Below, piece by piece: positions 27,047-49,372 of a DNA stretch of 64,000 nt (its first letter is position 1; each line of letters starts with the position of its first letter). Below the pieces are notes generated by a model that was not told the origin of the DNA, ran no database searches, and saw only the letters and a list, made by a program, of their open reading frames with translations. Both the position numbers and the translations under genes were made by a program. The stretch lies in the NCBI RefSeq assembly GCF_900170035.1, contig NZ_LT828548.1, forward strand, positions 116,227 to 180,226, written 5' to 3'. Source of the DNA: Desulfamplus magnetovallimortis (lineage in GTDB: Bacteria; Desulfobacterota; Desulfobacteria; Desulfobacterales; Desulfobacteraceae).

Positions 27047-27070
27047 GAACCAATGAAAATAAAAAAAATA

Positions 27071-27176
27071 GGGCATGCTTCATTTACAGGTTTACACTTT
27101 CTGGGATACATGTCCATTTATCGGGAATTTCCATCAAAAAAGTGTAAACTACTTTTGGGATGATATGAAGGATGTC
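27071..27176. repeat. Family C MITE-like element, copy 1
   Basis: A 106-bp element GGCATGCTTCAT ... ATGAAGGATGTC with inner arms TTTACACTTT / AAAAGTGTAAA and no ORF. It is flanked by an exact 8-bp direct repeat AAAAATAG (27063-27070 and 27177-27184). Confidence 0.9.
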
Positions 27177-27251
27177 AAAAATAGCACGAATTACCGCTTT
27201 GATATGGCTTATAACTCTTGCTTCATCGCTTTATATTACCCTTGAAGATGA

Positions 27252-27329
27252 GAAAGAAAGCGGAAACATGGCATTTGTCCTGATTGTGCAAAAAAACTTT
27301 ATCCTGATATAGAAATGTACGAAGATTGA
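27252..27329 (+). pseudogene. Relic of a sensor/response-regulator C-terminus
   Basis: The open stretch reads HGICPDCAKKLYPDIEMYED before TGA. HGICPDCAKKLYP is a familiar C-terminal motif of PAS-linked bacterial sensor proteins. The frame is closed by TGA at 27249-27251, so only about 25 codons remain. Its stop overlaps the start of the glycosyltransferase gene (TGATG), a sign of a former coupled operon. The rest of 26846-27328 is repeats F and C. Confidence 0.45.
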
Positions 27330-28993
27330 TGCTCTTTCAAAAAATTCATAAAAACAAAAATTTTTGCTGGAATATCCGAAAGATTTTTCATTGTGAACCT
27401 CGTCGTCAGGACTATCTTGTTATTTTTGGTCGTTATCCCATTCCTGGAAAAACCAAAACCCGCCTGATTCCTGCCCTGGGAAGTACAGGCGCAGCAGAGT
27501 GCCACCGAATCCTTACAGAAAAAACAGTTGCTACTGTTCGCATGTTTGAGAATAAGTACAATCGTCAAACGCAATTTGATGGCCAACGTCAATCTTTAGG
27601 CATTAAGTTTTACCATTTTGGTGGAACTTCTTTGCAATACAGACAATGGCTTGGTGAGGGGATTGACTTTCACCAACAGGCTTTCGGAGATCTTGGGGCT
27701 AAAATGTTCAGTGCTTTTTCCGAAGCTTTCAAACTCGGAGCTCAAAGAGTTGTCCTTATAGGAACTGATTTGCCGGATCTATCGGTTCACCACCTTTGTG
27801 AAGCTTTTGATGCACTTAAGCAGTATGATATTGTTCTTGGGCCTGCCCAAGATGGCGGCTACTGGCTTGTGGGTATGTCCCGGCCATATAATCTATTCAG
27901 CAATATCCCATGGGGAGAAGATACCGTTTTTTCCAGAACCCTTGAGGTTGCCTACAAATTGAACCTCAATCTATTTTTTCTTGAGACTCTTAGGGATATT
28001 GATCGCCCTTGTGATCTTTTTTTAACTGCTAATAAAGAAGTTGAAGACTTAAAGAAGGAGCCTGAAGGCTTGCAACAGGAGACTTTACAAAAGGAAGGCT
28101 TTCAGCAGGATGTTTCACAGCAGGATGTCTTACAGCAGGATGTTTCACAGCAGGATGTTTCACAGCAGGATGTCTTACAGCAGGATGTTTTGCAGCAGGA
28201 TGTTTTGCAGCATGATGTCTCGCAACAAGAACTCTTTCAACAAAAAAGTTGGGATAAAAAATACGCTTTTAAAAAAGATAATATTATTACCATGGGTTTA
28301 AAATGTAATCAAAACTGGCAAAAACCATTGATTTCAGTTATTATTCCTGCTCTTAACGAAGAATCCCGAATTGCCTCTGCCATTGAGTCTGCAAAAAATA
28401 TCAACACCGAGATCATAGTAGTTGATGGCGGAAGCTTTGATGACACTGTGGAAGTTGCAAAAAAATGTGGCGCCAAGGTTTTAACAGCTTCAGGGGGAAG
28501 GGCAAACCAGCAAAATAGGGGAGCTGATGTTGCACGTGGAAAAATTCTTGTTTTTCTACACGCGGACACACAGCTTCCCTCCGACTATGTTGTGCCTCTT
28601 TTTGCTGCATTTCTTGATAAAAAATGTGTGGCAGGGGCTTTTTCTTTTAAGACAAGCTCCAGCCATAAAGTTATGAACATTGTTGAATTTGGTGTTAATC
28701 TGCGAAGCCGTTTATTTAAGCTTCCCTATGGTGATCAGGCTCTTTTTTTCAGAAGCTCTTGTTTCAGAAAAGAAGATGGTTTTCCTCTAACTCCCATTGC
28801 CGAGGATTTAATTATGGTTCAAAAGATTAAAAAGAGAGGAAGATTTGCTATTCTCAGAGAGTCTGTCACTACCTCAGCAAGGCGATGGAACCGGATTGGT
28901 ATTTTGCGTACAACAGTTGTTAACCTTGTGATAGTTGCAGGAATATTAATGGGTTTCTCCCCTGATCGTTTTGCTAAACTGTACACACGGTAA
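27329..28993 (+). CDS. Fused double glycosyltransferase (rSAM/selenodomain-associated types 1 and 2)
   Basis: 554 residues from the ATG at 27329 (a TTG is in frame just before). The N-terminal half (about 25-235) is a DUF2064/TIGR04282-like transferase (LVIFGRYPIPGKTKTRLIP, LIGTDLPDL, GPAQDGGYWLVG). The C-terminal half (about 330-554) is a GT2-like TIGR04283 enzyme (SVIIPALNEESRI, EIIVVDGGSFDDT, VFLHADTQLP). These two are usually separate neighbouring genes; here they are one chain joined by about nine QQDVx pentads. Substrate unknown; relatives often sit beside radical-SAM arsenosugar-type genes, none of which is here. Confidence 0.85.
   Translation: MLFQKIHKNKNFCWNIRKIFHCEPRRQDYLVIFGRYPIPGKTKTRLIPALGSTGAAECHRILTEKTVATVRMFENKYNRQTQFDGQRQSLGIKFYHFGGTSLQYRQWLGEGIDFHQQAFGDLGAKMFSAFSEAFKLGAQRVVLIGTDLPDLSVHHLCEAFDALKQYDIVLGPAQDGGYWLVGMSRPYNLFSNIPWGEDTVFSRTLEVAYKLNLNLFFLETLRDIDRPCDLFLTANKEVEDLKKEPEGLQQETLQKEGFQQDVSQQDVLQQDVSQQDVSQQDVLQQDVLQQDVLQHDVSQQELFQQKSWDKKYAFKKDNIITMGLKCNQNWQKPLISVIIPALNEESRIASAIESAKNINTEIIVVDGGSFDDTVEVAKKCGAKVLTASGGRANQQNRGADVARGKILVFLHADTQLPSDYVVPLFAAFLDKKCVAGAFSFKTSSSHKVMNIVEFGVNLRSRLFKLPYGDQALFFRSSCFRKEDGFPLTPIAEDLIMVQKIKKRGRFAILRESVTTSARRWNRIGILRTTVVNLVIVAGILMGFSPDRFAKLYTR
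28103..28237 (+). repeat. In-frame 15-bp tandem repeat in the glycosyltransferase linker
   Basis: About nine units of CAGCAGGATGTYTYR encode QQDVS or QQDVL. The unit is a multiple of three, so gain or loss of units would change linker length without breaking the frame. Confidence 0.85.
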
Positions 28994-29101
28994 GTAATAT
29001 CTACTTTTCGATCATTTTAAAAATGTTTTGTAATTACAGATAAAATAAGTATTTGATTAAATATTTTGTCTGCTGATGATTACCCTACACTGAATACATA
29101 G

Positions 29102-29170
29102 TAAACAGGCATGATTGATTGCGTATCAATCACCCCCAAATATAAAAATAATAGCCATTTTCACGGTAAA
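29102..29170 (-). repeat. Family B repeat, single unit
   Basis: TAAACAGGCATGATTGATTG ... CACCCCC ... CACGGTAAA, with hairpin GATTGAT/ATCAATC. It lies in the gap 28994-29339 before the restriction-modification pair. Confidence 0.75.
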
Positions 29171-29206
29171 AGAGTAAAAGATAGCCGCTTGATTTTGGTT
29201 ACACTC

Positions 29207-29230
29207 AAACACTATTAGGACATAGTGTTT
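29207..29230 (+). terminator. Perfect hairpin before restriction-modification operon
   Basis: A 9-bp stem AAACACTAT / ATAGTGTTT with loop TAGGAC, followed by TTG. It may be a weak terminator or a binding site for a controller; no C-protein gene is seen. It immediately precedes a family E repeat. Confidence 0.4.
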
Positions 29231-29232
29231 TT

Positions 29233-29318
29233 GCAAGGTTTGATTGACGGGTATAAAAAGCTTTGAAGATTTGAAATGTCTTAAATAATCACCCGATGAT
29301 TTAAACTTGAAGAAACAA
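29233..29318. repeat. Family E inverted-repeat element
   Basis: CAAGGTTTGATTGACGGGT ... CACCCGATGATTTAAACTTG, ends forming an imperfect inverted repeat. ATAGT occurs just outside both ends (29223-29227 and right after the element), a possible 5-bp target duplication. It lies in the leader of the next gene. Confidence 0.6.
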
Positions 29319-29339
29319 TAGTAGAGGAGGACTATATAT

Positions 29340-30830
29340 TTGGCATCAGAAATTGAACAAATAAGATTGGCTGTATCAAGAAATATAGGTGCTAAAAAAA
29401 AGTCGCAGCTTGGTCAATTTTTTACATCAGCATCAATATCTAAATTCATGGCAGAGATGTTTGCTAATAATGAAAAAAGTATTTGTCATCTGTTAGATGC
29501 TGGTGCAGGTATTGGCTCGCTTTCGGATGCTTTTCTTGAGCGATGGGTATCTGGTGGTTTAAATTTTCAATGTGTAAAACTTGATGCTTATGAAATAGAT
29601 ACCTCTTTGAAATCTCATTTGGCTCAAACGTTAAGTAGGTATAATGAATGCCCTGGTTTTGATCTGATTATCCGAAGTACTGATTTTATTCAAGTTGCCT
29701 CAGATTATCTTTCTGGAGGTCTTTTTGCTGATAAAATACCAAAATATACCCATGCCATTTTAAATCCTCCTTATAAGAAAATACAAAGCAAATCTGTACA
29801 TCGTGCTGCATTAAGGGAAGTCGGTATTGAAACAGTAAATTTGTATTCTGCTTTTGTTGCTTTGTCATTGTCATTACTTGATGATCAAGGGCAACTTGTT
29901 GGAATTATACCGAGAAGCTTTTGTAATGGATTATATTACCGTCCATTTCGTAAATTCATGATGAGGCATGCTGCCATTAAACACATACATTTGTTTAAGT
30001 CACGGAATAAAGCATTCAAGGATGATGACGTGCTACAGGAAAATATTATAATTCGCCTTGAACGTGCTGGTAAGCAGGGAACAGTTATTATTTCAACATC
30101 AACAGATGATAGTTTTAAGGATTTGAGCATCCAGGAATATCCATTTGAGCGTATAGTATTTCCAGAAGATAAAGAACAATATATCCATGTTCCAACATCG
30201 TCCGAAATAAATGCTCTTGATCTATCTCCTTCAATCAGCAATACATTATCGGATATAAAAATCAATGTTTCCACTGGTCCGGTGGTAGATTTTCGAGTCA
30301 AAGAGCATCTATGTAAGATGCCTGAATCAAGTAGTGTTCCTCTACTATATCCAATTCATTTCATAAATAATGGTTGTGAATGGCCTAAACAGGATATCAA
30401 AAAACCAAATGCTATTAAACGCAATCAAGATACAGAAAAATGGCTATATCCAAATGGTTTTTACTGTGTTGTGCGCCGTTTTTCATCAAAAGAAGAAAAA
30501 CGTCGTGTTGTCGCAAAAGTTGTTGACCCTTCTAAATTTCCTGATGCATCTGCACTGGGATTCGAGAATCACCTCAATGTTTTTCATGCCGGCAAAAAAA
30601 GCTTACCAAAAGAGTTAGCCTTTGGAATAGCTTTGTTTTTAAACACAACCGCTGTTGATGACTATTTCCGAACATTTAACGGGCATACTCAAGTTAATGC
30701 GACAGATCTTAAGCGAATGAAATATCCTGATCGTGCTACTTTAATCAATTTTGGAGAGTGGGCAATAGCTAAGGGCGAACTCACTCAAAAGATGATTGAT
30801 GATAAATTGGAGATATTATTTAATGAGTGA
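29340..30830 (+). CDS. BsuBI/PstI-type adenine DNA methyltransferase
   Basis: 496 residues, beginning at TTG nine bases after a strong GAGGAGG; no ATG is available at that point. Gamma-class N6-adenine enzyme: GQFFTS motif X (25-30), AdoMet motif LDAGAGIGS (52-60), catalytic NPPY (142-145), then a long target-recognition half. Length and the RE partner match the M.BsuBI/M.PstI group (about 500 residues), which modifies the adenine in CTGCAG. The recognition site is inferred from family, not shown by the sequence. The 3-prime end overlaps the endonuclease gene by 8 bases. Confidence 0.9.
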   Translation: MASEIEQIRLAVSRNIGAKKKSQLGQFFTSASISKFMAEMFANNEKSICHLLDAGAGIGSLSDAFLERWVSGGLNFQCVKLDAYEIDTSLKSHLAQTLSRYNECPGFDLIIRSTDFIQVASDYLSGGLFADKIPKYTHAILNPPYKKIQSKSVHRAALREVGIETVNLYSAFVALSLSLLDDQGQLVGIIPRSFCNGLYYRPFRKFMMRHAAIKHIHLFKSRNKAFKDDDVLQENIIIRLERAGKQGTVIISTSTDDSFKDLSIQEYPFERIVFPEDKEQYIHVPTSSEINALDLSPSISNTLSDIKINVSTGPVVDFRVKEHLCKMPESSSVPLLYPIHFINNGCEWPKQDIKKPNAIKRNQDTEKWLYPNGFYCVVRRFSSKEEKRRVVAKVVDPSKFPDASALGFENHLNVFHAGKKSLPKELAFGIALFLNTTAVDDYFRTFNGHTQVNATDLKRMKYPDRATLINFGEWAIAKGELTQKMIDDKLEILFNE

Positions 30831-31770
30831 AATAAATGATCACGTAAAATCAGCACTTAAAATTATCATTTCGCTTGGACTCCCTCGGGCACAGCAGAAT
30901 GAGCGTTCCGCTTTGTCTTTGTTGGCTTTGCTTAATCTTACACCAGACAAAACATGGGCAGAGGCTGATAATCACTTAATTGGCATCACCCCAATCATGG
31001 ATTGGATACGTCAACATTATCAAAAAGATTATGCACCTAACACACGGGAGACAATACGGCGCCAAACAATGCACCAATTTATGGATGCAGGAATTGTTCT
31101 ATACAATCCAGATCAACCTGATCGATCAGTTAACAGTCCCAAGGCAGTCTATCAAATTGAACCTGCTGCATTAACATTATTACGTAGTTTTTATACAAAT
31201 GAATGGCATGATAATTTGACGAATTATTTATCCCAACGCGAAACGATTGCTTCTCGCTATGCTAAGGAGCGAGAAAAAAACCGTGTTCCTGTTCAAATCA
31301 GACATGGAGAAAAAATTACTCTTAGCCCTGGTGAACATAGTGAACTGATACGAGCCATTATAGAAGAATTCTCACCGCGTTTTGCACCTGGGTGTCTATT
31401 GCTTTATGTAGGTGACACAGGAGATAAATGGGCTTATTTTGATGCTGCGCTACTTTCTGGGTTAGGTGTAGATATTGATTCCCATGGTAAAATGCCAGAT
31501 GTTGTATTACACTACACTAAAAAAAACTGGCTGCTCTTAATCGAATCTGTAACAAGTCATGGGCCGGTTGACGGGAAAAGGCATTCAGAGCTGACACAAC
31601 TGTTTTCGGGTGCAAAAATTGGGCTCGTTTATGTAACGGCTTTTCCTAACCGTAGGGTAATGGCTCGCTACCTTACAGATATTGCATGGGAAACTGAAGT
31701 GTGGGTTGCTGATGCACCATCTCATTTAATTCACTTTGATGGAGAACGATTTCTCGGACCTTTTATGTGA
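30823..31770 (+). CDS. BsuBI/PstI-family type II restriction endonuclease
   Basis: 315 residues from the ATG at 30823 (TTGGAG 10-15 bases upstream), matching the 316-residue length of BsuBI. Highly conserved family strings are visible: SPGEHSELI, YVGDTGDKWAYFD, and DSHGKMPDVV with ESVTSHGPV, the PD-(D/E)xK-like core (Asp226, Glu241). Expected cut site CTGCAG by homology. The stop codon falls in TTATGTGAAAATC, a degraded edge of family D. CTGCAG occurs in this window (near 36016 and 52424), so protection must be by methylation rather than site loss. Confidence 0.92.
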   Translation: MSEINDHVKSALKIIISLGLPRAQQNERSALSLLALLNLTPDKTWAEADNHLIGITPIMDWIRQHYQKDYAPNTRETIRRQTMHQFMDAGIVLYNPDQPDRSVNSPKAVYQIEPAALTLLRSFYTNEWHDNLTNYLSQRETIASRYAKEREKNRVPVQIRHGEKITLSPGEHSELIRAIIEEFSPRFAPGCLLLYVGDTGDKWAYFDAALLSGLGVDIDSHGKMPDVVLHYTKKNWLLLIESVTSHGPVDGKRHSELTQLFSGAKIGLVYVTAFPNRRVMARYLTDIAWETEVWVADAPSHLIHFDGERFLGPFM

Positions 31771-31795
31771 AAATCTCCACAATCGCTTGTTTTTT

Positions 31796-32074
31796 TATAT
31801 GAAAGTCTCAGTAAGTGGCTGTTTTTAAAACGACTTTCATCTCTTCGATTGTGGCGGCTATCCGCCATGTACGTTATATGAAAGTCTCTGTAACAGCCTG
31901 TTTTAAAAAACGACTTTCACTCCTTAGATTGTGGCAGGTATCCGCCATGTACATTTTATATGAAAGTCCCCGTAGTTTGGGGATTTTCATCCATTCGATT
32001 GTGGCGGTAATGCCGCCATGGCCGTTATAAAGACTTTCATCATTTAGATTGTGGCGAGAATTCGCCATGTACGT
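31796..32074. repeat. Family D tandem array, four units
   Basis: About 70-80-bp units TGAAAGTC-(30)-GACTTTCA, then GATTGTGGC-hairpin-GCCATG-ACGTTATA. The four hairpins are GGCGG/CCGCC, GGCAG/CCGCC, GGCGG/CCGCC and GGCGA/TCGCC. The gap 31771-32316 contains only this array and the following family A copy. Confidence 0.85.
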
Positions 32075-32080
32075 TATAAA

Positions 32081-32254
32081 CTCAAAATCGACACCTTATT
32101 GCTTTTTGATCAATTATTGAATTTGTCTGAATCAGGATAACCAGGATGAAAAGGATGCTCAGGATAAATAATCCTGCCTTATCTTGTTAATCTTGGACAT
32201 CCTGATTCAGACAATTTTGACAAGGCTCAAAAGATCATAGGTGTCGGCTTTGAG
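32081..32254. repeat. Family A MITE-like element, copy 4 (inverted)
   Basis: A 174-bp complete copy in the opposite orientation to copies 1-3, CTCAAAATCGACACC to GTGTCGGCTTTGAG. The 6-bp direct repeat TATAAA is at 32075-32080 and 32255-32260. It abuts the family D array. Confidence 0.9.
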
Positions 32255-32316
32255 TATAAAAAAAACAACCAAATCAAATGTAATAGGTGTCGGATTTAAA
32301 TATATCAGGAGAAAGT

Positions 32317-33183
32317 ATGAAATTGTTTCCATTGAAAAACCAGAAATTTTGGAAAGACTTGTGGCACAATGCAATTGACAATGCCTCTGAAGAAAAGAGC
32401 TGCACAGAAAATGTAAAACGCTGGGACAAACGTGCTGACAGTTTTGCGAAACGTACATCATCTCCAGAGGCCATCCGTCGTAAGGAAGATATCTTTTCTA
32501 TGCTTTTCAGTGCAGGTGCCTTGAAATCCGGAAGCAGGGTTCTTGATATTGGTGCAGGGCCTGGTAACTGGGCAATTCCAATGGTGGAAGCAGGTGCTTA
32601 TGTCACAGCACTTGAGCCTTCTGCCGGTATGGTTGATGTGTTGAAAAAAAAGATGGCTGCAAAGAATATTTCACCGGTTCAGATCAAGATCGACCAGAGA
32701 GCCTGGCAGGATGTTAATGTGGAAAAAGAGGATATGATTGGGCACTTTGATCTTGTGTTTGCCTCCATGAGTCCCGGGGTGAGAGATCCTGAAACCCTGG
32801 ATAAGGCTATGAAAGCTTCAAGGGGGTTTTGTTATCTGAGTACCTTTTCCGGTGGAGGATGGCGAAGCTGTTACAATGATATGTGGAAAGAGATAACAGG
32901 GGAAGAGCTTGAATCATCTTCATGGGATTTTATCTATCCTTTTACATATGTCTATTCACTTGGATATCGCCCACGGGTGGCATTTAATGTCTGGTCACAT
33001 GACAGGGAAGAGTCCATAGAGGATGCAATCCAGAATATTCTTTTTTTTGTGGAAGGTGCAACAGAGATAACTACGGAGGCGCGTGAAAATTTGGCTGATT
33101 ATGTTCAGAGCCATTCAGTTGATGGCATGTTCAGGCAGAAGCAGACCATATGCCAGGGGGTGATGTTGTGGCAGGTGGCTTGA
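32317..33183 (+). CDS. Class I SAM-dependent methyltransferase
   Basis: 288 residues from the ATG at 32317, six bases after AGGAGA; an upstream GTG in frame is less likely. Motif I is VLDIGAGPGNW (75-85), followed by an acidic residue in ALEPSAGM. The C-terminal part has no membrane span. The substrate cannot be told from sequence. The same strand continues with a Rossmann-fold protein 90 bp downstream. In anaerobes such genes often accompany cofactor or metal-related enzymes, but nothing here shows it. Confidence 0.8.
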   Translation: MKLFPLKNQKFWKDLWHNAIDNASEEKSCTENVKRWDKRADSFAKRTSSPEAIRRKEDIFSMLFSAGALKSGSRVLDIGAGPGNWAIPMVEAGAYVTALEPSAGMVDVLKKKMAAKNISPVQIKIDQRAWQDVNVEKEDMIGHFDLVFASMSPGVRDPETLDKAMKASRGFCYLSTFSGGGWRSCYNDMWKEITGEELESSSWDFIYPFTYVYSLGYRPRVAFNVWSHDREESIEDAIQNILFFVEGATEITTEARENLADYVQSHSVDGMFRQKQTICQGVMLWQVA

Positions 33184-33272
33184 TTATTGAGTTAAACCTT
33201 CATGGACAGACTCCGGCAACACCTGATCATGAAAATGATAAGGGATTTTTACGGTAAAGGTTGGCTCAAATC

Positions 33273-33986
33273 ATGGAAATCATATGGATAATTGGTGCAG
33301 GAAAATTTGGAAAGCACGCTTTACAGGGACTTTCAGGTAATTCGGCTGTTAAAAAGCTTGTTATGGTCGATATGGTTGAACCAGGCTCTTTTCTTCATGC
33401 AGAAGGTATAGAAAAAAAAGTTGAGTTTATCCGTATGGATGGGGTCACTTTTTTAAAGGAGTATCTTAAACCTGATGGTCAACCCCCTGCCAGGATAGAT
33501 TCTGATGATACTATCAATGGTCGTAAAGTTTATGAAGATTATGCCCCTGACTGGATTATACCTGCTCTGCCTGTCCATCTTGCTGCAAGATGGTGTCAGG
33601 CTATGATTGAACCAAATACCATATCTTCCTGTGAGCTGCCTTCGGAAGTGGACTGCATGCTGCCAAACACCATGCGGGGTGCAAATGGGGATATGTATGT
33701 CAGTCATGCCGATTTTTATTGTCCTTCCAGTTGTAATGAGCCTGATAAATTTTGTACCGTAACAGGAAAACCACGAAAACAGGATATGCATAACCTAATT
33801 GCAGAGACAAAAATTGAAGGGTTCCATAATTTTGTAATTCAAAGCAGGCAACTTGGCCCGGGGATCGGAGGTTTTCGTCCTAAAACCCTTTTTGAACTTT
33901 TGAAAAAGGTTCAGAACGTTAAGGGGAAACTTGTTATTACTACTGCATGCCGGTGTCATGGGGTATTGACAGGTCTTAAAAAATAA
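33273..33986 (+). CDS. Rossmann-fold NAD(P)-binding protein with Cys cluster
   Basis: 237 residues from the ATG at 33273; a TTG 12 bases upstream is an alternative. N-terminal nucleotide motif IIWIIGAGKFGKHA. In the second half there is a Cys-rich stretch CPSSCNEPDKFC and a C-terminal TACRCHG, possible metal ligands. I do not recognise the family. A strong hairpin 4 bases after its stop ends the transcript. It may be co-transcribed with the methyltransferase upstream. Confidence 0.65.
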   Translation: MEIIWIIGAGKFGKHALQGLSGNSAVKKLVMVDMVEPGSFLHAEGIEKKVEFIRMDGVTFLKEYLKPDGQPPARIDSDDTINGRKVYEDYAPDWIIPALPVHLAARWCQAMIEPNTISSCELPSEVDCMLPNTMRGANGDMYVSHADFYCPSSCNEPDKFCTVTGKPRKQDMHNLIAETKIEGFHNFVIQSRQLGPGIGGFRPKTLFELLKKVQNVKGKLVITTACRCHGVLTGLKK

Positions 33987-33990
33987 AAAC

Positions 33991-34022
33991 AGGGGAGAAG
34001 CAGTAAATCATGCTTCTCCCCT
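33991..34022 (+). terminator. Hairpin terminator after the Rossmann-fold gene
   Basis: A perfect 12-bp stem AGGGGAGAAGCA / TGCTTCTCCCCT with an 8-base loop. The U-rich tract is not immediate (TATGG, then ACTTTTTTG), so it may need a factor or act as an RNA-stabilising end. Confidence 0.65.
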
Positions 34023-34063
34023 TATGGTATTAAAATTACTTTTTTGTTATGGTATCTGAGTGT

Positions 34064-34151
34064 TCTTTCAAGGTTTGATTGTGGGGTAGAAAATGCCTTT
34101 AACCTTTGAAAAGCCTTAAAAGTCTCCCGACAGTTTAAACTTGAAGAAGCA
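34064..34151. repeat. Family E inverted-repeat element
   Basis: TTTCAAGGTTTGATTG ... CCCGACAGTTTAAACTTG, the same layout as the copies at 29233, 38013 and 45945 (the last inverted). Confidence 0.65.
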
Positions 34152-34180
34152 CTGTGTCTGCCATGTGCGTTTAACTTGTT

Positions 34181-39062: not shown

Positions 39063-39071
39063 AAATAGACA

Positions 39072-39327: not shown

Positions 39328-39607
39328 GGAAAATGGTTTGTATTGCAGGCACCCTTTATTTTTCTCTTTATGCTTTTAAAAATTACAATCAAAATACAAT
39401 CAGCAAATAGTGGAAAAATCTTCATGAGAAAAGTGTAAAGTTTTTTCTGAAGTGCATGAAGGATACCTGTATTTCCCCAAAAAGTTCATATTTCATAAAA
39501 AAATTCAAAATCGACATCTTATTGCTTTTTCAGCAGATATTGCATTTGTCTGAATCAGGATAACCAGGATGGATAAAGATGTTCAGGATATACAGTCCTG
39601 CCTTAGT

Positions 39608-39690
39608 AATTGGGTTTAATTAACTTACCCAAGCTCCCCATCGCAACCCTGTAAGAGATGGCTGGGGGTGAGATGAATGGGCAACTTATT
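39608..39690. repeat. Family I fragment
   Basis: TTAATTAACTTACCCAAGC ... GGGCAACTTATT, an imperfect inverted repeat shared with 53153-53256 and 59098-59205. Confidence 0.4.
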
Positions 39691-39702
39691 AAAAATCAAT
39701 TC

Positions 39703-39889
39703 GCCATCCTTCATATCAGATTAAACGGGCATGATTGTGTATCAATCATCCCCAACTATCAAAATGATAGTCATTTTCACGGTAAAGTAGTTTACACTTA
39801 TTGTCTGGAGTAGAGACGCAATGCATTGCCTCTCTACGGTTGGGTTATTTTGGCATTTAAAACGTGTAAGCCGGCAAATGAAGGATGCC
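39703..39889. repeat. Family C MITE-like element interrupted by a B unit
   Basis: Ends GCCATCCTTCATATC and AATGAAGGATGCC. Exact 8-bp flanking repeat ATCAATTC at 39695-39702 and 39890-39897. A reverse family B unit (39722-39786) sits near the left end, before GTAGTTTACAC. Confidence 0.8.
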
Positions 39890-39905
39890 ATCAATTCCTT
39901 ATCTT

Positions 39906-41282: not shown

Positions 41283-41284
41283 AC

Positions 41285-41416
41285 TTTGACCGTGGAAATG
41301 GATACAATTTTTCATATTCGGGGGTGGCTGGATGGTAGCCATGACCGTTTACTGTGAAAATGACTATCATTTTTATATTTAGGGATGATTGATACGCAAT
41401 CAATCATGCCTGTTTA
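41285..41416 (+). repeat. Family B pair, two units
   Basis: A GGATAC-type unit with a GGCTGGATGGTAGCC arm is followed by a GACTAT-type unit with GATTGAT/ATCAATC. A family C right end (AAAAGTGTAAA ... ATGAAGGGTGCC) follows at about 41435-41482. Confidence 0.75.
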
Positions 41417-41534
41417 CCGTGAAAGGGTCTTTCCCCAAAAAAAGTGTAAAATAATTTTTTTGATGCGATATGAAGGGTGCCAAAATCTCCCTCACTATTT
41501 TTTAAAAACAGAAATATCAAAATGGAGAACCACA

Positions 41535-42320: not shown

Positions 42321-42321
42321 C

Positions 42322-43911
42322 ATGACTGAAAACAGATCTTTCTGGGAACACGAAGAGTCACTGCTTGAAGAGCGTCAGCAGATGGCAATCTGGCCAGGGG
42401 GCCAAAAGGCTGTTGATCGCCTTGCTGCAAAAAACAAAAGGCCTGTGCGGGAACTTATACAGGATATGATAGATCCCGGGACATATTTTTTTGAACTTTC
42501 ACTGCTTGCTGGTTTTGGCATGGGTTACCCGGGTGTTGATGATGTCCCTTGCGGGGGTATTGTCACAGGTCTTGGGAAAATCCATGGTAACTGGACAATG
42601 ATTGTAGGTCATGACTCAAGGGTCAAGGCTGGTACCTATTTTCCCATTACACTAAAAAAACATATGAGGGCTCAGGCCATTGCTGACCAATGCGGAATCA
42701 ACTCTGTCTATATTGCCGATTCAGGTGGGGTGTTTCTTCCCATGCAGGCAGAAGTTTTTCCGGATGACCAGCATTTTGGAACTATCTTTTATAATATGGC
42801 AAGAATGTCTGCCAAAGGCTTGAAACAGATTACAATGAGTACCGGTGGCAATACCGCAGGTGGTGCTTATATAGTATTCATGGCATGTCAATCCATCATG
42901 ATTGACCAGCAGTCATTTTCATTTCTGGGCGGCCCCCCCCTTGTGAAGATGGCAACAGGAGAGACCATTTCCGCTGAAAACTTGGGAGGAGCAGAAGTTC
43001 ATACTGCGACATCTGGTGGAGCCGACCATTTATGCGAGGATCAGGCAGATGCTGTGGCAAGGGTAAGAGCGATTTTATCACTTGACAGACCCCAGTCAAT
43101 CCACCTGCACCGTTATCAGGAACAGGAGCCTGCAATACCTGCTGATACCATATATGACAGGATTCCCATGTCGGTTCACCAGGGCATTGATGTAAGATCC
43201 ATCATTGAATGCATTGCTGATGGAAGCGTTTTTGATGAATCAAAGCAAAATTATGCCCGGGGAAGGGGTGATAACATTGTGGTGGGGAAAATGCGCATCA
43301 AGGGATTTCCCGTAGGTGTCATTGCATCCAACAGGGTGGGAATCATATTTCATGAAGCTGCCAAAAAGGCAACTGAATGGATTGTTAGATGCTCCCAGGA
43401 AAAGATTCCGCTGCTTTTTATTCAGAATTCCCCTGGCTTTATGGTGGGTTCTGAATCAGAGCATGCCGGTATCGGAAAATATGGTGCTGATCTTGTACGT
43501 GCTGTATCATGTGCCCAGGTACCAAAAATTCAGCTTGTGATAGGACCTGACAATGGTGCTGCAAACTACGGCATGTGCGGCAGGGCATATCGTCCACACT
43601 TTTTATTCTCCACCATGAGAGCAAGAACATCTGTCATGAGCGGCAAAAGCGCCGGCGGCGTTATGCTCTCCATTGAAGAGGCAAAGCGCAAAAAAAGCGG
43701 CAAGCCCATGTCACAGGAAGAAAAAGATGCATTCCAGCAGAAAATGATTGAAAGCTATGATGGCGAAGCCCATCCGTTTTACTGTGGAGCAAGGCTTCTT
43801 AATGACAGGGTACTTAAATTTTCGGAAATAAGGCAGTGGCTTGGAATGGCCTTTGAGGTTAGTCTTCTCAAAAAAATTGAAGAACCATCTTTTGGAAATT
43901 TCAGGTTTTAG
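42322..43911 (+). CDS. Carboxyltransferase, methylcrotonyl-CoA carboxylase beta-like
   Basis: 529 residues from the ATG at 42322. Two crotonase-like halves with acyl-CoA and carboxybiotin sites: IADSGGVFLPMQAEVFPDD, GNTAGGAYIVFMA, FLGGPPLVKMATGE, and in the second half QNSPGFMVGSESE. Strings fit the beta subunit of methylcrotonyl-CoA carboxylase better than propionyl-CoA carboxylase. It should carboxylate 3-methylcrotonyl-CoA, or run in reverse like the glutaconyl-CoA decarboxylase alpha subunit. No biotin carboxylase or biotin carrier gene lies in the window. Eleven bases after the stop a family D hairpin begins. Confidence 0.85.
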   Translation: MTENRSFWEHEESLLEERQQMAIWPGGQKAVDRLAAKNKRPVRELIQDMIDPGTYFFELSLLAGFGMGYPGVDDVPCGGIVTGLGKIHGNWTMIVGHDSRVKAGTYFPITLKKHMRAQAIADQCGINSVYIADSGGVFLPMQAEVFPDDQHFGTIFYNMARMSAKGLKQITMSTGGNTAGGAYIVFMACQSIMIDQQSFSFLGGPPLVKMATGETISAENLGGAEVHTATSGGADHLCEDQADAVARVRAILSLDRPQSIHLHRYQEQEPAIPADTIYDRIPMSVHQGIDVRSIIECIADGSVFDESKQNYARGRGDNIVVGKMRIKGFPVGVIASNRVGIIFHEAAKKATEWIVRCSQEKIPLLFIQNSPGFMVGSESEHAGIGKYGADLVRAVSCAQVPKIQLVIGPDNGAANYGMCGRAYRPHFLFSTMRARTSVMSGKSAGGVMLSIEEAKRKKSGKPMSQEEKDAFQQKMIESYDGEAHPFYCGARLLNDRVLKFSEIRQWLGMAFEVSLLKKIEEPSFGNFRF

Positions 43912-43923
43912 AAACTGACGTGG

Positions 43924-43975
43924 TTAACCACCATGTACGTTATTAAAAAAAGCGTTAAAACAGCCATTTGGAGGT
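43924..43975. repeat. Family D unit carrying the next gene's ribosome site
   Basis: Stem GTGGT/ACCAC, then CATGTACGTTATT, then AAAACAGCCATTTGGAGG. The GGAGG that serves the lyase gene lines up with GCGGAGA of other D copies, so the repeat appears to provide the Shine-Dalgarno. Confidence 0.6.
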
Positions 43976-43980
43976 GTATG

Positions 43981-45114
43981 ATGACTGAATATGATATGTG
44001 GAAAATTTTCCCAAGAATGCCCAAAAAAGTAATAATAGGTGATATAACCGTACGTGATGGATTCCAGCATGCTGAAAAATTCATTTCCACTGAGGCCAAA
44101 AAGTTTTACCTTGAGGAGCTGATTTTTGCCGGTTGCCGTCATATTGAGGTGACAAATCTTGGAAATCCCTACAGTATGCCCCAGTTCAGCGATGCTGAAG
44201 AGCTTTTCACCTATCTGCGCGGTGATCTTTTCAGGAAAAAATGTGCAAAAAGAGGTATTGATGTTGATGATATCTGCTTTACAGCCATAACAATACGTGA
44301 ACCTTCTGTTGACAGAGCTATTGAATTAAAGCAGAAAGGGATAGGTCCTGACAGGGTACTTATGATGGTGTCCACAGAAGAAGAGCACCATTTTGCAAAT
44401 TCCGGCACAACCCTTCCCAACTACTGGAAAGAGGCAGAAAGGTGCATAAAAAAATGTACGGATGCAGGCATTAAAATGTGCGGGACAGTAAGCACAATAT
44501 GGGGCAGTCCCATAGGTGGTGCCACTGATATGAAGGATGCTGTTAAGTTTACAAAAAGATGGTTAGATATAGGCGCTAATGATGTTGAACATGCAGACCA
44601 CGACGGCAGCGCATCGGCGGCTGATGTTTACCGTTACTTTTCAATGGTGCTTGATGAGCTTCCGGATGTAAATCTCCATATAGCGCATTTTCATGAGACC
44701 AAACGTGTGGCTTCTGCATCTGTTCTGGCATCACTTCAGGCAGGAATCAGAAATTTTGAGGCAACCCTTGGCGGACTTGGAGGGCAGCCTGCAAACTTCA
44801 TGGATGATAGACCCATTAAGGGTACAGGAGAGTACTATTACGACGATCCCCGATATGTAGGTCTAATATGCCTTGAAGATACCCTTGTCCAGGTTGATGA
44901 GATGGGCATTGAACATGGCTGGGATGTTGACAGGGTTCTCTGGCTGGGAAAACAGATGGAAAGAACCATGGGAAAACGCCTCAGAAGTGAAGCCATGATA
45001 AACGGCAGAACCCTTAAGGAGGGGCATATGCATTATGCACGTCCGGGCCTTAAGAAGCTTAAAGAAAAGCTGGGTGAAAAACCTGATCAGCTTCTGCCGG
45101 AAGGCTGGGAATAA
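43981..45114 (+). CDS. HMG-CoA lyase-like (pyruvate carboxyltransferase family)
   Basis: 377 residues from the second of two adjacent ATGs, six bases after GGAGG. TIM-barrel of the DRE metallolyase group: GDITVRDGFQ (Arg25, Asp26) and metal ligands in HIAHFHETK. By context it would split HMG-CoA into acetyl-CoA and acetoacetate. However, the usual lyase loop GGCPYA reads GGLGGQPANF here, so the conserved catalytic-loop cysteine is absent, and RDGLQ is RDGFQ. It may be a divergent lyase or act on a related acyl-CoA. Activity should be regarded as inferred. Confidence 0.75.
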   Translation: MTEYDMWKIFPRMPKKVIIGDITVRDGFQHAEKFISTEAKKFYLEELIFAGCRHIEVTNLGNPYSMPQFSDAEELFTYLRGDLFRKKCAKRGIDVDDICFTAITIREPSVDRAIELKQKGIGPDRVLMMVSTEEEHHFANSGTTLPNYWKEAERCIKKCTDAGIKMCGTVSTIWGSPIGGATDMKDAVKFTKRWLDIGANDVEHADHDGSASAADVYRYFSMVLDELPDVNLHIAHFHETKRVASASVLASLQAGIRNFEATLGGLGGQPANFMDDRPIKGTGEYYYDDPRYVGLICLEDTLVQVDEMGIEHGWDVDRVLWLGKQMERTMGKRLRSEAMINGRTLKEGHMHYARPGLKKLKEKLGEKPDQLLPEGWE

Positions 45115-45237
45115 CAGATTCGGGATAAGGGGCTTTGTAAAAAATCATTGTCCCATTCTCTTCTTGCTATTCATGCAGAAGTGTTTTAGATGATGTGAGT
45201 GGGTATTGATTTTTTTGAGTCCCTAATGCCAACAACG

Positions 45238-45256
45238 GGACGGCAAAATGCCGTCC
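45238..45256. promoter_or_regulatory. Perfect palindrome before the XRE-cupin gene
   Basis: GGACGGCA-AAA-TGCCGTCC, an 8-bp stem with 3-base spacer, 17 bases before the start codon. It may be an operator for the regulator itself or an mRNA hairpin. Confidence 0.5.
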
Positions 45257-45273
45257 AATCCAAGGAAAAAGAT

Positions 45274-45933
45274 ATGCAGAATGATGATATTACACCTCAT
45301 ATCAATGTGGACTACTTTGAGGATCTAACTGGCAATATTGAAGACGGAGAGAAGATCGACAATCTCAGTGGAAAAAAGAGGGAAACTGAAGATATCGGTA
45401 CAAAGATCAGGAAACTGAGAGAGAAAAAAGGGATCACCATTGAAGAGCTTTCCAATCTTACAGGATTTGAAAAGGAGAGACTGGAAAAAATTGAAAAAGG
45501 AGTGGTGAAACCCCAGCTTGGTACTGTTATGAAACTTTCAAGATCTCTTGACAGCGCACTGAGTCGCCTTGTTTCAGATGTGGGTTCACAGCTCTACTCA
45601 ATTACGAGAAAATCAGAAAGAAAATATATATCCCGTTCAACTTCACCGGAAGGGGAGAAGAAATTATACACATACATGAGCCTTGCTCCGGAAGTTAAGG
45701 GTCGCCACATGGAGGCCCTTATTGTGCAACTTGAGGAGAACCCTGCCAAAGATGTATCAATACATGACGGTGAGGAGTTTATATATGTACTTGAAGGTGT
45801 TGCCTCACTTGAAATTGACGGTGAGACCCATGAGCTCAATCCTGGGGACAGTGCCTACTACCTCTCCACAACACCCCATCTTATAAAGGCAAAAGAGGAG
45901 AGAGCAACAATCCTGGCTGTACTTTATGAATAA
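45274..45933 (+). CDS. XRE-family regulator with C-terminal cupin
   Basis: 219 residues from the ATG at 45274, seven bases after AAGGA; an upstream GTG frame is less likely. Helix-turn-helix at about 45-100 (KIRKLREKKGITIEELSN). Cupin at about 140-219 (HDGEEFIYVLEGVASLEIDG), a small-molecule sensor fold. Such proteins often sit next to acyl-CoA or CoA-ligase genes and control them. Here it is inside the leucine-type operon, just before acetoacetyl-CoA synthetase, so it may tune that last step. Confidence 0.88.
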   Translation: MQNDDITPHINVDYFEDLTGNIEDGEKIDNLSGKKRETEDIGTKIRKLREKKGITIEELSNLTGFEKERLEKIEKGVVKPQLGTVMKLSRSLDSALSRLVSDVGSQLYSITRKSERKYISRSTSPEGEKKLYTYMSLAPEVKGRHMEALIVQLEENPAKDVSIHDGEEFIYVLEGVASLEIDGETHELNPGDSAYYLSTTPHLIKAKEERATILAVLYE

Positions 45934-45944
45934 TGTAGCGCTTC

Positions 45945-46029
45945 TTTAAGTTTAAACTGTCGGGTATTTTTTTAGACAACTCAAAGACTCAAGGCTTTTT
46001 CCACCCGCCAGTCAAACCTTGAAAGAACA
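45945..46029. repeat. Family E element, inverted
   Basis: CTTCTTTAAGTTTAAACTGT ... CCGCCAGTCAAACCTTGAAAG, opposite orientation to the other E copies. It lies between the regulator and the synthetase genes. Confidence 0.65.
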
Positions 46030-46057
46030 GTATCTAAATAAGGAGCTGGAGACACAT

Positions 46058-48007
46058 ATGACAAAACCATTATGGACACCAACAGATGAGCGTGTGAAGC
46101 AAACCAATATGTATCGCTTCATGCAGGCTGTAAATGCAAAATATGGAAAAAATTTTACAGACTATGACGCCCTTTATGAGTGGTCCATTGAAAATCTTTC
46201 GGAATTTTGGGCATTCATGTGGGATTTTGCAGAGATCCGTTTTTCCAGATCCTATGACAAGGTGCTTGATGACCCATGCAAAATGCCAGGAGCAAAATGG
46301 TTTCAGGGAGCACAGCTAAACTTTGCCGAAAACCTTCTCCGCCTGAGAAACGATAAGATTGCCCTTGTTTTCAGGGGAGAAGATCAAGTGAGACGAACCC
46401 TCACATACAAGGATCTTTACGATGAGACTTCAAGGGTTGCAAAGGGACTGAAATCCTTGGGTATAAAGCCTGGAGACAGGGTTGTGGGCTTTGTACCCAA
46501 CATGCCGGAGTCCATTATTGCCATGCTTGCTGCCACAAGCATTGGTGCTGTATGGTCATCATGCTCCCCTGATTTCGGTATAAAAGGGGTTTTGGACAGA
46601 TTTGGGCAGACACGTCCAAAAGTTCTTTTTACAGCAGATGGATATTTTTTTAAGGGTAAACCCATTGACAGCCTGCAAAAAATTAAGGGCATTATTGAAG
46701 AGCTTCCCTCAATTGAAAAAATTGTGGTTATTCCCTATGCAGATGAAGATCCCCCTGTAAAAACCCTTCCCAGTGCTATTTTATGGGACAGGTTCAAAAA
46801 CTCAAGGGCCGGAGAGATCGAATTTGAACAGCTTCCATTTGATCATCCCCTATATATCATGTACTCATCAGGTACCACAGGGCTTCCCAAATGTATGGTA
46901 CAAAGTGCAGGTGGTGTTTTGATGCACCAGATAAAGGAGCTTATGCTCCACACTGATCTCAAGGAAAATGATACAATTTTTTATTTCACAACATGCGGAT
47001 GGATGATGTGGAACTGGCTTGTGACATCTCTTTCTGTTGGTGCAACCCTTGTACTCTATGACGGCAATCCATTTCATCCGGGCCCGGATGCTCTGTGGCA
47101 GATGGCTCAGGATGAAAAAATAACTGTATTTGGAACCAGTGCCGGATATATTGCGGCTCTTAAAAACGCCGGTGTAAAACCAGCCCAGCAATTTGATCTT
47201 TCACCCTTGAAGGCACTTTTATCAACTGGATCTCCTTTGTCAAAGGAAGATTTTAAGTTCATATATGACGAGGTCAAATCTGACCTTCAGCTTGCATCAA
47301 TTTCAGGTGGTTCAGATCTTAACGGATGCTTTGCCCTTGGTAACCCCATGGGGTCTGTCTATTCCGGTGAACTTCAGTGCAGAGGGCTTGCAATGAAGGT
47401 GTTTGCTTATGATGAAGATGGAAAACCTGTTGTCGGAGAGCAGGGCGAACTTGTCTGTACAGCACCATTTCCTTCCATGCCCATATATTTCTGGAACGAT
47501 GAAGATGGATCTCGCTACCACTCTGCCTATTTTGACCACTATCCTGGTGTCTGGGCACATGGGGATTTCATTGAGGTTACTGAGCGCGGTGGAGTTATAA
47601 TGTACGGCAGATCAGATGCTACATTGAATCCCGGAGGTGTCAGAATCGGCACGGCAGAAATCTACCGCCGTATTGAACAGATGGAAGAGATAGCAGACAG
47701 CGTAGTTGTGGGTCAGAACTGGAATAACGATGTCAGGATAATTCTATTTGTAACCATGCCTGAAGGGGTCAAACTGACAGACGGGATAAGAGAAAAGATA
47801 AGAAATGATATTCGCACCCATGCATCCCCAAGACATGTTCCAGCAAAAATCATAGAAGTGCCTGACATCCCCTACACATTGAATATGAAGAAGGTTGAGC
47901 TTGCTGTCAAAAAGATGATTCACGGCCAAGAGGTTAAAAATAAAGATGCTCTCAAAAATCCGGAAGCGTTGGATTTTTTCAGCAATATCAAAGAATTGAA
48001 GGAGTGA
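46058..48007 (+). CDS. Acetoacetyl-CoA synthetase
   Basis: 649 residues from the ATG at 46058, after GGAGA; the frame upstream is repeat DNA. ANL-superfamily ligase: YIMYSSGTTGLPKCMVQ, SGGSDLNGCF, and YGRSDATLNPGGVRIGTAEIYR, the last typical of acetoacetate-CoA ligase. Reaction: acetoacetate + ATP + CoA to acetoacetyl-CoA + AMP + PPi. It would recover the acetoacetate produced by the lyase upstream. Length fits the family (about 650). A family D array begins within ten bases of its stop. Confidence 0.9.
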   Translation: MTKPLWTPTDERVKQTNMYRFMQAVNAKYGKNFTDYDALYEWSIENLSEFWAFMWDFAEIRFSRSYDKVLDDPCKMPGAKWFQGAQLNFAENLLRLRNDKIALVFRGEDQVRRTLTYKDLYDETSRVAKGLKSLGIKPGDRVVGFVPNMPESIIAMLAATSIGAVWSSCSPDFGIKGVLDRFGQTRPKVLFTADGYFFKGKPIDSLQKIKGIIEELPSIEKIVVIPYADEDPPVKTLPSAILWDRFKNSRAGEIEFEQLPFDHPLYIMYSSGTTGLPKCMVQSAGGVLMHQIKELMLHTDLKENDTIFYFTTCGWMMWNWLVTSLSVGATLVLYDGNPFHPGPDALWQMAQDEKITVFGTSAGYIAALKNAGVKPAQQFDLSPLKALLSTGSPLSKEDFKFIYDEVKSDLQLASISGGSDLNGCFALGNPMGSVYSGELQCRGLAMKVFAYDEDGKPVVGEQGELVCTAPFPSMPIYFWNDEDGSRYHSAYFDHYPGVWAHGDFIEVTERGGVIMYGRSDATLNPGGVRIGTAEIYRRIEQMEEIADSVVVGQNWNNDVRIILFVTMPEGVKLTDGIREKIRNDIRTHASPRHVPAKIIEVPDIPYTLNMKKVELAVKKMIHGQEVKNKDALKNPEALDFFSNIKELKE

Positions 48008-48016
48008 TTTTATATA

Positions 48017-48244
48017 ACGGCCATGGCGGCTAACCGCCACAACGAAGCATGAAAGTCCTGAGAAGCCTTGAATCACGGGGACTTTCTTATAAACGTACAT
48101 GGCGGATTACCGCCACAATCGAAAGGTTGAAAGTCTTTATAAAAACAGCCACTTGCGGAGACTTTCATATAAACTGTCCAGGCAGACTCATCTGTCATAA
48201 AGAAGTATGAAAGTCCTTAAAAACATTAAAATACGGGGACTTTT
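48017..48244. repeat. Family D tandem array, three units
   Basis: Units TATAACGGCCATGGCGG..., then GAAGCATGAAAGTCC, then GGGGACTTTC; stems GGCGG/CCGCC, GGCGG/CCGCC and GGCAGA/TCTGTC. The last unit is interrupted by a family C element. The gap 48008-48427 has no gene. Confidence 0.8.
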
Positions 48245-48341
48245 GGCATGTTTCATTTATCGGGTTACACTTTTTTGTGAGAGATTCCCGCCACACAGAG
48301 TTTTCTCTCCGGAAAGTGTAAACTGGGAAATGAAGCATGCC
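48245..48341. repeat. Family C MITE-like element, copy 2
   Basis: 97 bp, GGCATGTTTCATTT ... AAATGAAGCATGCC, with near-perfect terminal inverted repeats and inner arms ending AAAGTGTAAA. The exact 8-bp repeat GGACTTTT at 48237-48244 and 48342-48349 comes from the family D unit it entered. Confidence 0.9.
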
Positions 48342-48427
48342 GGACTTTTTTATGAAAAGTACTTTTAGGACATAATGAAGGATGTCGTATATTGACGACT
48401 GTAATGGCATCCATTATAATGCTATCC

Positions 48428-48721
48428 ATGATAAAGTCGTTTAAAAATAGCGGAACGAAGGATATTTTTGATGGAACAGTCTCAAAGTCAGCCAGAAAGT
48501 GCTGTCCTAAATCTATTTGGTCTGTTGCTCAACGCAAATTGGACCAAATTAACCGCGTACAAGATATCACTGAGCTTATGATTCCCCCAGGAAACAGACT
48601 TGAACAATTAAAAGGTGACAGAGATAATCAATTCAGTATCCGAATAAATCAACAATATCGTGTTTGCTTTATTTGGGAGGAAGGCCAGGCATATGAAGTT
48701 GAAATCACAGATTACCACTGA
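48428..48721 (+). CDS. higB: HigB-family toxin (RelE/ParE fold)
   Basis: 97 residues from the ATG at 48428, where homologues start (MIKSFKNSGTKDIFDG); no clear Shine-Dalgarno. C-terminal strings LEQLKGDRDNQFSIRIN and YRVCFIW are typical of HigB, a ribosome-dependent mRNA endonuclease. It overlaps the antitoxin gene by 29 bases, toxin first, the usual hig order. A C-family element and D array lie directly upstream. Confidence 0.92.
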   Translation: MIKSFKNSGTKDIFDGTVSKSARKCCPKSIWSVAQRKLDQINRVQDITELMIPPGNRLEQLKGDRDNQFSIRINQQYRVCFIWEEGQAYEVEITDYH

Positions 48722-49052
48722 TAATATCTCGAGGAAGCTCCCTAAACATCGTCCTCCAACTCATCCAGGAGAAATGCTTTTGGAGGAGTTTGTGAAACCA
48801 CTCAAAATTACCCAGACAGAACTTGCTCAAAAGTTAGGTGTCTCCTATCCTCGTCTTAACCAAATCATCAAAGGTTATAGATCAGTAACACCAGACACTG
48901 CACTAAGGTTATCTCAAGTTGTAGGAATGTCGGCAGACTTTTGGCTTGGGTTACAACAAGACTGGGACTTGTGGCATGCAATTAATAGCTCAAAATTTAT
49001 CGAGATTAAAAAGTTACAACCAATATTAATAGACACAGAAAATTTAGCATAA
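48693..49052 (+). CDS. higA: HigA-family antitoxin (XRE helix-turn-helix)
   Basis: 119 residues from the ATG at 48693, after GGGAGGAAGG, which is inside higB. PPTHPGEMLLEEF is the hallmark HigA start, followed by an HTH (ITQTELAQKLGVSYPRLNQI) and SADFWLGLQQDWDLW. It should bind HigB and repress the operon. The strong internal ribosome site compared with weak initiation of higB would favour antitoxin excess. Confidence 0.93.
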   Translation: MKLKSQITTDNISRKLPKHRPPTHPGEMLLEEFVKPLKITQTELAQKLGVSYPRLNQIIKGYRSVTPDTALRLSQVVGMSADFWLGLQQDWDLWHAINSSKFIEIKKLQPILIDTENLA

Positions 49053-49134
49053 CATTTCGTTCATTATATCAGGCCATAGGGCTTCATAAAAAAAACCAGT
49101 AAAAAATTAATCCAGATAACAGAGAGTTATACTG

Positions 49135-49372
49135 TTCCAGATAATTAAATTGGCAAGCAGTGTAGGGGCAATCCCTTGTGGTTGCCCTTCAGAATTGAGA
49201 ATGCCAAAATATTTTTCTGGAAATCTATAGACTTTTCGGCATCTTTCATATCTCCACAAAAGTAGTTTACACTTTTTGGAGAAAGCCCCTGAAAAACGGA
49301 GCTTGGCCTCAGAAAGTGTAAAGTGGTCATGAAGGATGCCGACTTTTCCATTATCAATTTAATTATCTGGAA
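49135..49372. repeat. Inverted-repeat element G, interrupted by a C element
   Basis: A perfect 18-bp inverted repeat, TTCCAGATAATTAAATTG (49135-49152) and CAATTTAATTATCTGGAA (49355-49372). A complete family C copy lies inside near the right arm. No ORF. The stretch 49053-49134 shows nothing. Confidence 0.75.
49238..49340. repeat. Family C MITE-like element, copy 3
   Basis: 103 bp, GGCATCTTTCATATC ... CATGAAGGATGCC; exact 8-bp flanking repeat GACTTTTC at 49230-49237 and 49341-49348. Confidence 0.9.

Follow-up and report, generated by a model that had tools for sequence, protein, structure and literature searches.

Four repeat copies with target duplications in the window

Four copies of a short non-coding repeat, here termed family C, are situated in a stretch of 64,000 nucleotides of the Desulfamplus magnetovallimortis genome (contig NZ_LT828548.1, positions 116,227 to 180,226; G000:C9:116227-180226), and this whole stretch is called the window in the following. 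The initial annotation had described these copies as resembling miniature inverted-repeat transposable elements (MITEs), with exact 8-bp repeats in their flanks that could not be due to chance. All four were indeed present, at 27072-27176, 39703-39889, 48245-48341 and 49238-49340, with matching 12-bp ends and an exact 8-bp duplication around each of them. One coordinate was amended: copy 1 ends at 27176 as described, but it starts at 27072 and not at 27071.

Copy 1 has a length of 105 bp, lies on the plus strand and consists of a left (L) arm (27072-27100), a core and a right (R) arm (27139-27176); its target duplication AAAAATAG occupies 27064-27071 on the left and 27177-27184 on the right. 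Copy 2, on the minus strand, is a 187-bp member of the 126-bp class and is bordered by ATCAATTC at 39695-39702 and 39890-39897. Its R arm is at the left and its L arm at 39861-39889, and it is interrupted, as had been noted before; the interruption is a 61-bp piece of a different repeat within the R arm (39726-39786). Copy 3, with GGACTTTT at 48237-48244 and 48342-48349, has two short-spacer (L-type) arms, at 48245-48273 and 48313-48341, which is the sole case among 114 copies and explains its length of only 97 bp. Copy 4 (103 bp, minus strand) is composed of an R arm (49238-49275), a core and a short-spacer arm at the right, and its duplication GACTTTTC is found at 49230-49237 and 49341-49348.

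Copies 3 and 4 flank a gene pair encoding a HigB-like toxin and a helix-turn-helix antitoxin (48392-49052), and their duplications GGACTTTT and GACTTTTC have the 7-mer GACTTTT in common. Because each of the two copies has its own complete duplication, they are read as independent insertions. An empty site was seen for none of the window copies, a comparison that covered only the loci already fetched.

Abundance and mobility of family C in the genome

The genome has a size of 6.68 Mb and is listed as 97.3% complete; 2.46 Mb of it, the window included, were read, and the numbers below refer to this part unless stated otherwise. Genome-wide, the 12-bp tip GGCATCCTTCAT occurs 822 times with at most one mismatch, compared to 7 occurrences of the reversed pattern. 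Pairs of ends were chosen if at least 7 of the 8 flanking bases matched, which yielded 120 pairs, 97 of them with a perfect match. After removal of one pair of 54 bp and four of more than 700 bp, 115 pairs of 90-700 bp remained, of which 96 have an exact duplication and 19 a duplication matching at 7 of 8 bases. Thus, the duplications seen in the window are not absent from other copies, and the MITE-like character with 8-bp target duplications is supported genome-wide. Chance does not account for them: of the 1116 end pairs that the true end forms on contig C1 (1.09 Mb), 54 have duplicated flanks, whereas five scrambled ends gave none among 274, 109, 257, 14 and 18 pairs, respectively. Extrapolation suggests about 310 complete copies in the whole genome. 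Arms without a partner are also found, namely 9 of 13 in the window, 40 of 161 on C1 and 18 of 75 in the part of C2 that was read.

Family C has the properties of MITEs, i.e. terminal inverted repeats (the 12-bp tips at both ends), a target duplication of constant length (8 bp, exact in 96 of 115 pairs), a short length, no transposase gene and many copies; 113 of the 120 pairs span 97-298 bp, which is too short for a transposase. Identical copies occur at different places in six groups, one of which comprises five 158-mers. In addition, the flanks of all 115 elements were joined without the element and without one duplication, and for 12 of them the joined sequence matched elsewhere in the same genome, ungapped and at 85% or more. 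These empty sites can be found in the same genome because the target itself was a repeat; a looser count that includes gapped and partial matches gave 35. The 96 exact duplications have an A+T content of 77%, versus 59% in the genome and 66% in nearby flanks, and they reveal a symmetric target-site preference similar to CAAATTTG. Some of the copies look recent. These results confirmed that the four repeats in the window are real insertions of a non-coding mobile element of about 106 bases.

Conserved two-part arms and variable cores

Each end of the element has an outer part, the 12-bp tip GGCATCCTTCAT, and an inner box of 11 bp, GTTTACACTTT. The two are separated by 6 bp at one end of a copy and by 15 bp at the other, and the variable core lies between the inner boxes. 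The spacers of 6 and 15 bp were found in 95 of 114 copies, while 16 copies differ, mostly by one base, and three are unclear. A length of 105-106 bp characterizes 72 of the 120 pairs, and smaller classes exist at 126, 157-160 and 184 bp. In 59 copies of 106 bp, the conservation per position amounts to 1.76 and 1.71 bits in the inner boxes, 1.73 and 1.81 bits in the tips, and 0.87 bits in the core; the value for the tips is partly the result of selection, because they served to find the copies, whereas the inner boxes were used only to orient them. For the 106 copies of 97-200 bp, the average identity is 85% in the arms and 53% in the cores. These copies fall into 12 core classes at a single-link threshold of 72%, of which five contain more than one copy and the largest contains 76. 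The length is thus fixed although the middle diverges, and the fixed length and spacing may reflect what the transpososome tolerates.

The folding potential does not distinguish all classes from shuffled sequences. The representatives of the 158-bp, 126-bp and 184-bp classes fold much more stably than shuffles, with z values of -5.7, -3.1 and -10.6, respectively, but that of the 106-bp class does not stand out in this way (z -1.4), and altogether 5 of the 12 core classes have z values below -2. Only 11 of 114 copies are located in open reading frames (ORFs) of at least 100 residues, compared to 84% of random positions. The strongly intergenic position, the ability to fold and the fixed length would all be expected if the repeats were kept as functional intergenic hairpins, e.g. 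terminators or protein-binding sites, and mobility were secondary. However, we regard this as highly improbable. The duplications, the empty sites and the identical copies at new places show transposition, an intergenic bias would also result from purifying selection, and it is the tips and inner boxes that are conserved while the cores vary. Furthermore, two of the five core classes with several copies, including the commonest one, do not fold below a z value of -2, and the gene neighborhoods of the copies are mixed (33 between a gene end and a gene start, 33 between a start and an end, 22 between two starts and 15 between two ends).

Search for an autonomous copy in the own genome

The initial annotation had proposed to look for a complete insertion sequence sharing these ends. 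Such an element was found in relatives, in pieces, but not in the own genome, where no autonomous copy was detected within the 2.46 Mb. None of the searches with PF01609, PF12762, PF01610, PF03050 and PF00872 led to a gene bordered by family-C ends: PF01609 had six hits, all of them lacking a suitable end pair within 1.5 kb, the models for IS1595, ISL3 and IS256 had no hits, and IS66 had one weak hit lacking the ends. At C3:49525, tblastn gave a weak hit, the sequence of which identifies it as a histidine kinase.

Longer pairs of ends were likewise rejected as candidates. Pairs of 1831, 3312, 3952 and 6770 bp with duplicated flanks were put down to chance, on account of poor ends or of their distance. 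Pairs of arms at 3703, 5376, 6283 and 6315 bp have unlike flanks, and one of 2214 bp spans host genes according to our reading. A 674-bp pair with an exact duplication and a 633-bp pair of arms contain no open frame of more than 57 residues; between the arms of the latter (L101 9464-10096; G000:C3:269464-270096), a unit with GATCATAGTAGTCAAC is present seven times in tandem. Another pair of arms of 465 bp is also present in the own genome. Outside of it, a 66-bp match in G061 (L231) has no transposase-sized ORF beside it.

A probable autonomous parent in Desulfobacter latus

Desulfobacter latus AcRS2 very probably carries the parent of family C, i.e. a transposase gene with matching ends. Many contigs of its assembly have one of their ends about 127 bp within a repeat that carries family-C tips. 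This multicopy repeat has both arms of family C, including their unequal spacing, and its left interior differs from its right interior. In one contig the right interior leads into a 188-residue open frame, the stop codon of which is 115 bp before the tip. When left ends, chosen from a list of matches, were compared with 14 right ends, 9 of 11 were equal to one of the right ends over the 8 flanking bases, with one ambiguous case in which two ends on each side share GAAAATTT; counted as distinct 8-mers, the pairing is 8 of 10. We take the left and right ends as those of one multicopy element, in which left arm, gene and right arm would be joined.

Homologues of the D. latus transposase fragment were found in 4 of 86 genomes of the taxonomic family of the window, namely D. 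latus, G008 (three loci), G002 and G003 (a short remnant only). The distance between the stop codon and the right tip is 113-128 bp in D. latus, at all three G008 loci and at one G002 locus; the same spacing characterizes a copy from a Campylobacteraceae bin, the tip of which has decayed. A profile search of 18 further element-bearing genomes retrieved a Campylobacteraceae protein (E 1.7e-45) and an N-terminal fragment from Desulfamplus (1.0e-42) as well as two matches with a stop, a short piece in G131 (3.2e-13) and a weak one in G132 (2.3e-5).

An N-terminal fragment of the same transposase family (L274 1-492; G136:C173) lies beside an epimerase-like gene, and the fetched 1.9 kb contain no tips; a short piece upstream of it resembles the start of what we take to be an Rpn-type protein. 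A further relative (L269 2501-3478; N-terminal 316 residues, with 50% identity to the Acaryochloris protein described below) is located on a plasmid of Burkholderia latens, where it ends next to a copy of IS66.

Taken together, we consider it highly likely that family C is a non-autonomous cut-and-paste element, i.e. a MITE, whose partner is the insertion sequence seen in pieces in D. latus and in the genus of the window. A DDE transposase would recognize the two-part ends, with a distance between tip and inner box of 6 bp at one end and 15 bp at the other, would favor symmetric, A/T-rich target sites such as CAAATTTG, and would generate the 8-bp duplications. From sequence comparison, the D. 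latus-type transposase probably also moves the copies studied here; the arms are common to family C and the D. latus multicopy element with its matching 8-bp flanks, and the transposase gene lies beside the right arm.

Several observations weigh against this assignment. No single contig that was read contains the complete parent, because the assemblies break inside it. Among the ends fetched, 5 of the 14 right ends in D. latus have no left partner, and 2 of the 11 left ends are unpaired. The profile search retrieved a relative in only 4 of the 18 genomes, with the Nitrosomonas bin among the 14 without a transposase match, and a tip with at most two mismatches is present in none of the four matched stretches, one of which has a decayed right arm. 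The D. latus fragment has no match in the genome of the window, and six proteins of the transposase family yielded nothing credible in its 2.46 Mb, although some copies look recent. Lastly, the end is rare in some genomes of the same genus, with counts of 5 in G005, 9 in G007 and 4 in G009, versus 2, 4 and 1 for the reversed pattern.

The lack of a relative of the D. latus transposase in a genome that is listed as 97.3% complete would be accounted for if the copies had been moved by a different transposase with a similar end preference that has been lost or is unrecognized in the own genome. We think that this is unlikely, because both arms recur in the D. latus repeat with their unequal spacing, and because relatives of its transposase are found at the corresponding place in two genomes of the window's genus. 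Within the transposase families searched, the own genome offers no rival candidate either, given the PF01609 hits without fitting ends, the empty IS1595, ISL3 and IS256 searches and the single weak IS66 hit.

The D. latus ends also bear on the origin of the variable cores, which may be altered through recombination within the inner boxes or when other palindromic repeats insert. Whereas twelve of the 14 right ends carry the arm ATAAGTTCAAAAGTA, the other two carry the outer arm ATCACCCCCAAAGTA of a local MITE class and join the common interior at TTTACA. This is what an exchange at the inner box would leave, and it argues against the alternative that core diversity arose only by insertion of other palindromic repeats into one ancestral element, with no arm recombination needed; however, the two ends may go back to a single event. 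Copy 2 and the copy at C2:308636 do carry insertions of another repeat, and some cores look to us like dispersed REP-type palindromes, so that we give insertion as the sole source a chance only slightly short of even. Exchange and insertion of foreign repeats are thus both open as routes of core change.

Identity of the transposase

Six proteins or fragments of the transposase family had no Pfam match above the cut-off, and for five of the six the same was true for NCBIfam, while the Pfam positive controls, a true ISL3 and a true IS66 transposase, were recognized with E values of 7e-36 and 1.4e-89, respectively. Signals below the cut-offs included those of Transposase_mut (E 0.005; 16.2 versus 21 bits), the IS256 model (E 0.0065 and 0.028; 15.5 versus 150 bits), ISLre2 (E 0.035) and the NCBIfam ISL3 model, which is the best NCBIfam signal of the Campylobacteraceae protein (E 0.0022; 17.2 versus 180 bits). 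Unrelated families scored alike (sigma-70 region 4, 0.0043; CNOT11, 0.024; FliS, 0.045), and therefore the transposase hits below threshold prove nothing by themselves.

A full-length relative of 491 residues is encoded by Acaryochloris marina (WP_012167171.1, annotated as hypothetical protein). Its identity to the Desulfobacteraceae fragments is 34-36% over about 90 residues, and it has a weak Pfam ISL3 signal (E 0.033; 14.4 versus a cut-off of 23 bits). According to the alignment, D157, D197, DVFH and E421 are its candidate residues. The Campylobacteraceae protein has D2, DxxH and E, with E at the position of D1. The motif DVFH or DTFH starts 21 residues after D2, and the distance from D2 to E is 224-237 residues.

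Prokaryotic Mutator-like elements (p-MULT) have duplications of 8 or 9 bp, a terminal cytosine and a C/D(2)H motif 11-19 residues after the second aspartate, with a helical insert of 99-138 residues (PMC3942029). The 8-bp duplications and the terminal C of family C and the D. latus element, as well as the DxxH motif of the transposase relatives, are similar; in contrast, the DxxH motif is found 21 instead of 11-19 residues after D2, and the 224-237 residues between D2 and E compare with an insert of 99-138 (PMC3942029). In addition, no family model exceeds its cut-off here. The likeness to ISL3 is weak and comes from models below the cut-off, and hhalign against a single true ISL3 protein gave a probability of 0.3%. 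We therefore leave the transposase unclassified, with a leaning to the Mutator/ISL3 side.

Occurrence in other genomes

In nine other genomes of the window's GTDB genus, the number of ends ranges from 4 (G009) to 247 (G001), compared to 0-4 for reversed controls. A scan of named genomes with the right-arm pattern gave matches from at least 80 stretches. Among the matches listed are Desulfobacter latus, D. vibrioformis, several Desulfamplus bins, Desulfococcaceae HSG9, other bins of Desulfobacterales and Deltaproteobacteria, a Campylobacteraceae bin and a Nitrosomonas bin. The 80 stretches contain 48 end pairs with duplications, 43 of which are exact and at least two of which are probably accidental (54 and 738 bp, both 7/8), as well as 40 right-arm matches without a duplicated partner, many of them near contig ends. 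The cores vary by host; Desulfobacter, Desulfamplus and the Campylobacteraceae bin share the arms. Neither the arms nor two of the proteins had a match in viral contigs, a 40-base arm and the D. latus fragment had none in plasmids, and nothing was found in phages.

One duplicated pair was present in each of 5 of the 12 Campylobacteraceae stretches checked. Their G+C content of 31-36% differs from the 37-41% of five Desulfamplus stretches, which makes mis-binning from Desulfamplus unlikely. The Nitrosomonas bin contains 18 exact 14-mer matches, versus none for the reversed pattern, and three right arms; its case is weaker than that of the Campylobacteraceae bin, as the three right-arm stretches have no duplicated pair. 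A more far-reaching scenario would be a platform, based on one DDE transposase lineage of unclassified type and its two-part unequal ends, that mobilizes a pool of unrelated palindromic repeats, with cores swapped in the inner boxes, and is passed between Desulfobacterota, Campylobacterota and Betaproteobacteria. This cross-phylum scenario is doubtful, and the lack of a duplicated pair in the Nitrosomonas stretches slightly lowers its odds.

Decayed copies and other repeats in the window

Apart from the four duplicated copies, the window contains decayed and partial ones, all on the plus strand where an orientation was assigned. Decayed copies are located at 18250-18352, 39348-39467 and 54455-54559, and a clear 8-bp duplication is absent at these three, the flanks of which were inspected; those of the last one are ATTATTTA and TATTTTTA. 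Another decayed copy (63835-63933) has no right tip, and a further decayed or partial copy is found near 63766. The right part of a copy occupies 41400-41481, and its left part looks replaced by another repeat. A lone decayed R arm with 11 mismatches (48349-48386) lies beside copy 3.

TAAA or GTAAAC sites within family-C arms are targets of a dispersed repeat of the GTTTACCGTGAAAATGACTATCATTTTTATATTTGGGGGTGATTGATACGCAATCAATCATGCC type, the insertions of which are accompanied by a short direct repeat. This dispersed repeat is found at 39726-39786, about 26950-27010, 41370-41415 and 63640-63700 in the window and G000:C2:308636. A third long repeat, of the CTGAATCAGGATAACCAGGATAAA type, recurs at 39550-39612 and 49430-49500 of the window, at L002 14950-15040 and within a 633-bp pair of family-C arms.

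Comparison with known systems

A MITE normally resembles a shrunken copy of one parent. In family C the arms stay, the middle differs by class and host, and the commonest length is fixed. The fixed arms and length allow a direct approach to the requirements of a transposase beyond its terminal repeats, and numerous orphan intergenic repeats of sulfate reducers are linked to a transposase that is unnamed in the annotation libraries searched. Family C is not named in the titles or abstract openings among the papers listed. MITEs as such are a known kind of element; provisionally, the partner and the exchangeable cores look new.

The Chunjie MITE of Geobacter uraniireducens has a length of 178-235 bp, conserved ends and direct repeats and is mostly intergenic (PMC10969869). 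Family C is similar in its conserved ends, direct repeats and intergenic bias, and differs in length. Correia/NEMIS elements have about 107 bp, or about 155 bp in a form with 50 additional bp inside, and RUP has 107 bp and 108 intergenic copies (PMC2229807). Family C resembles both in its length, terminal inverted repeats and target duplications, but Correia/NEMIS and RUP are described there with TA at their termini, unlike family C (PMC2229807). What further distinguishes family C from these two are its 8-bp duplication, its two-part unequal arms and its cores, which differ by class.

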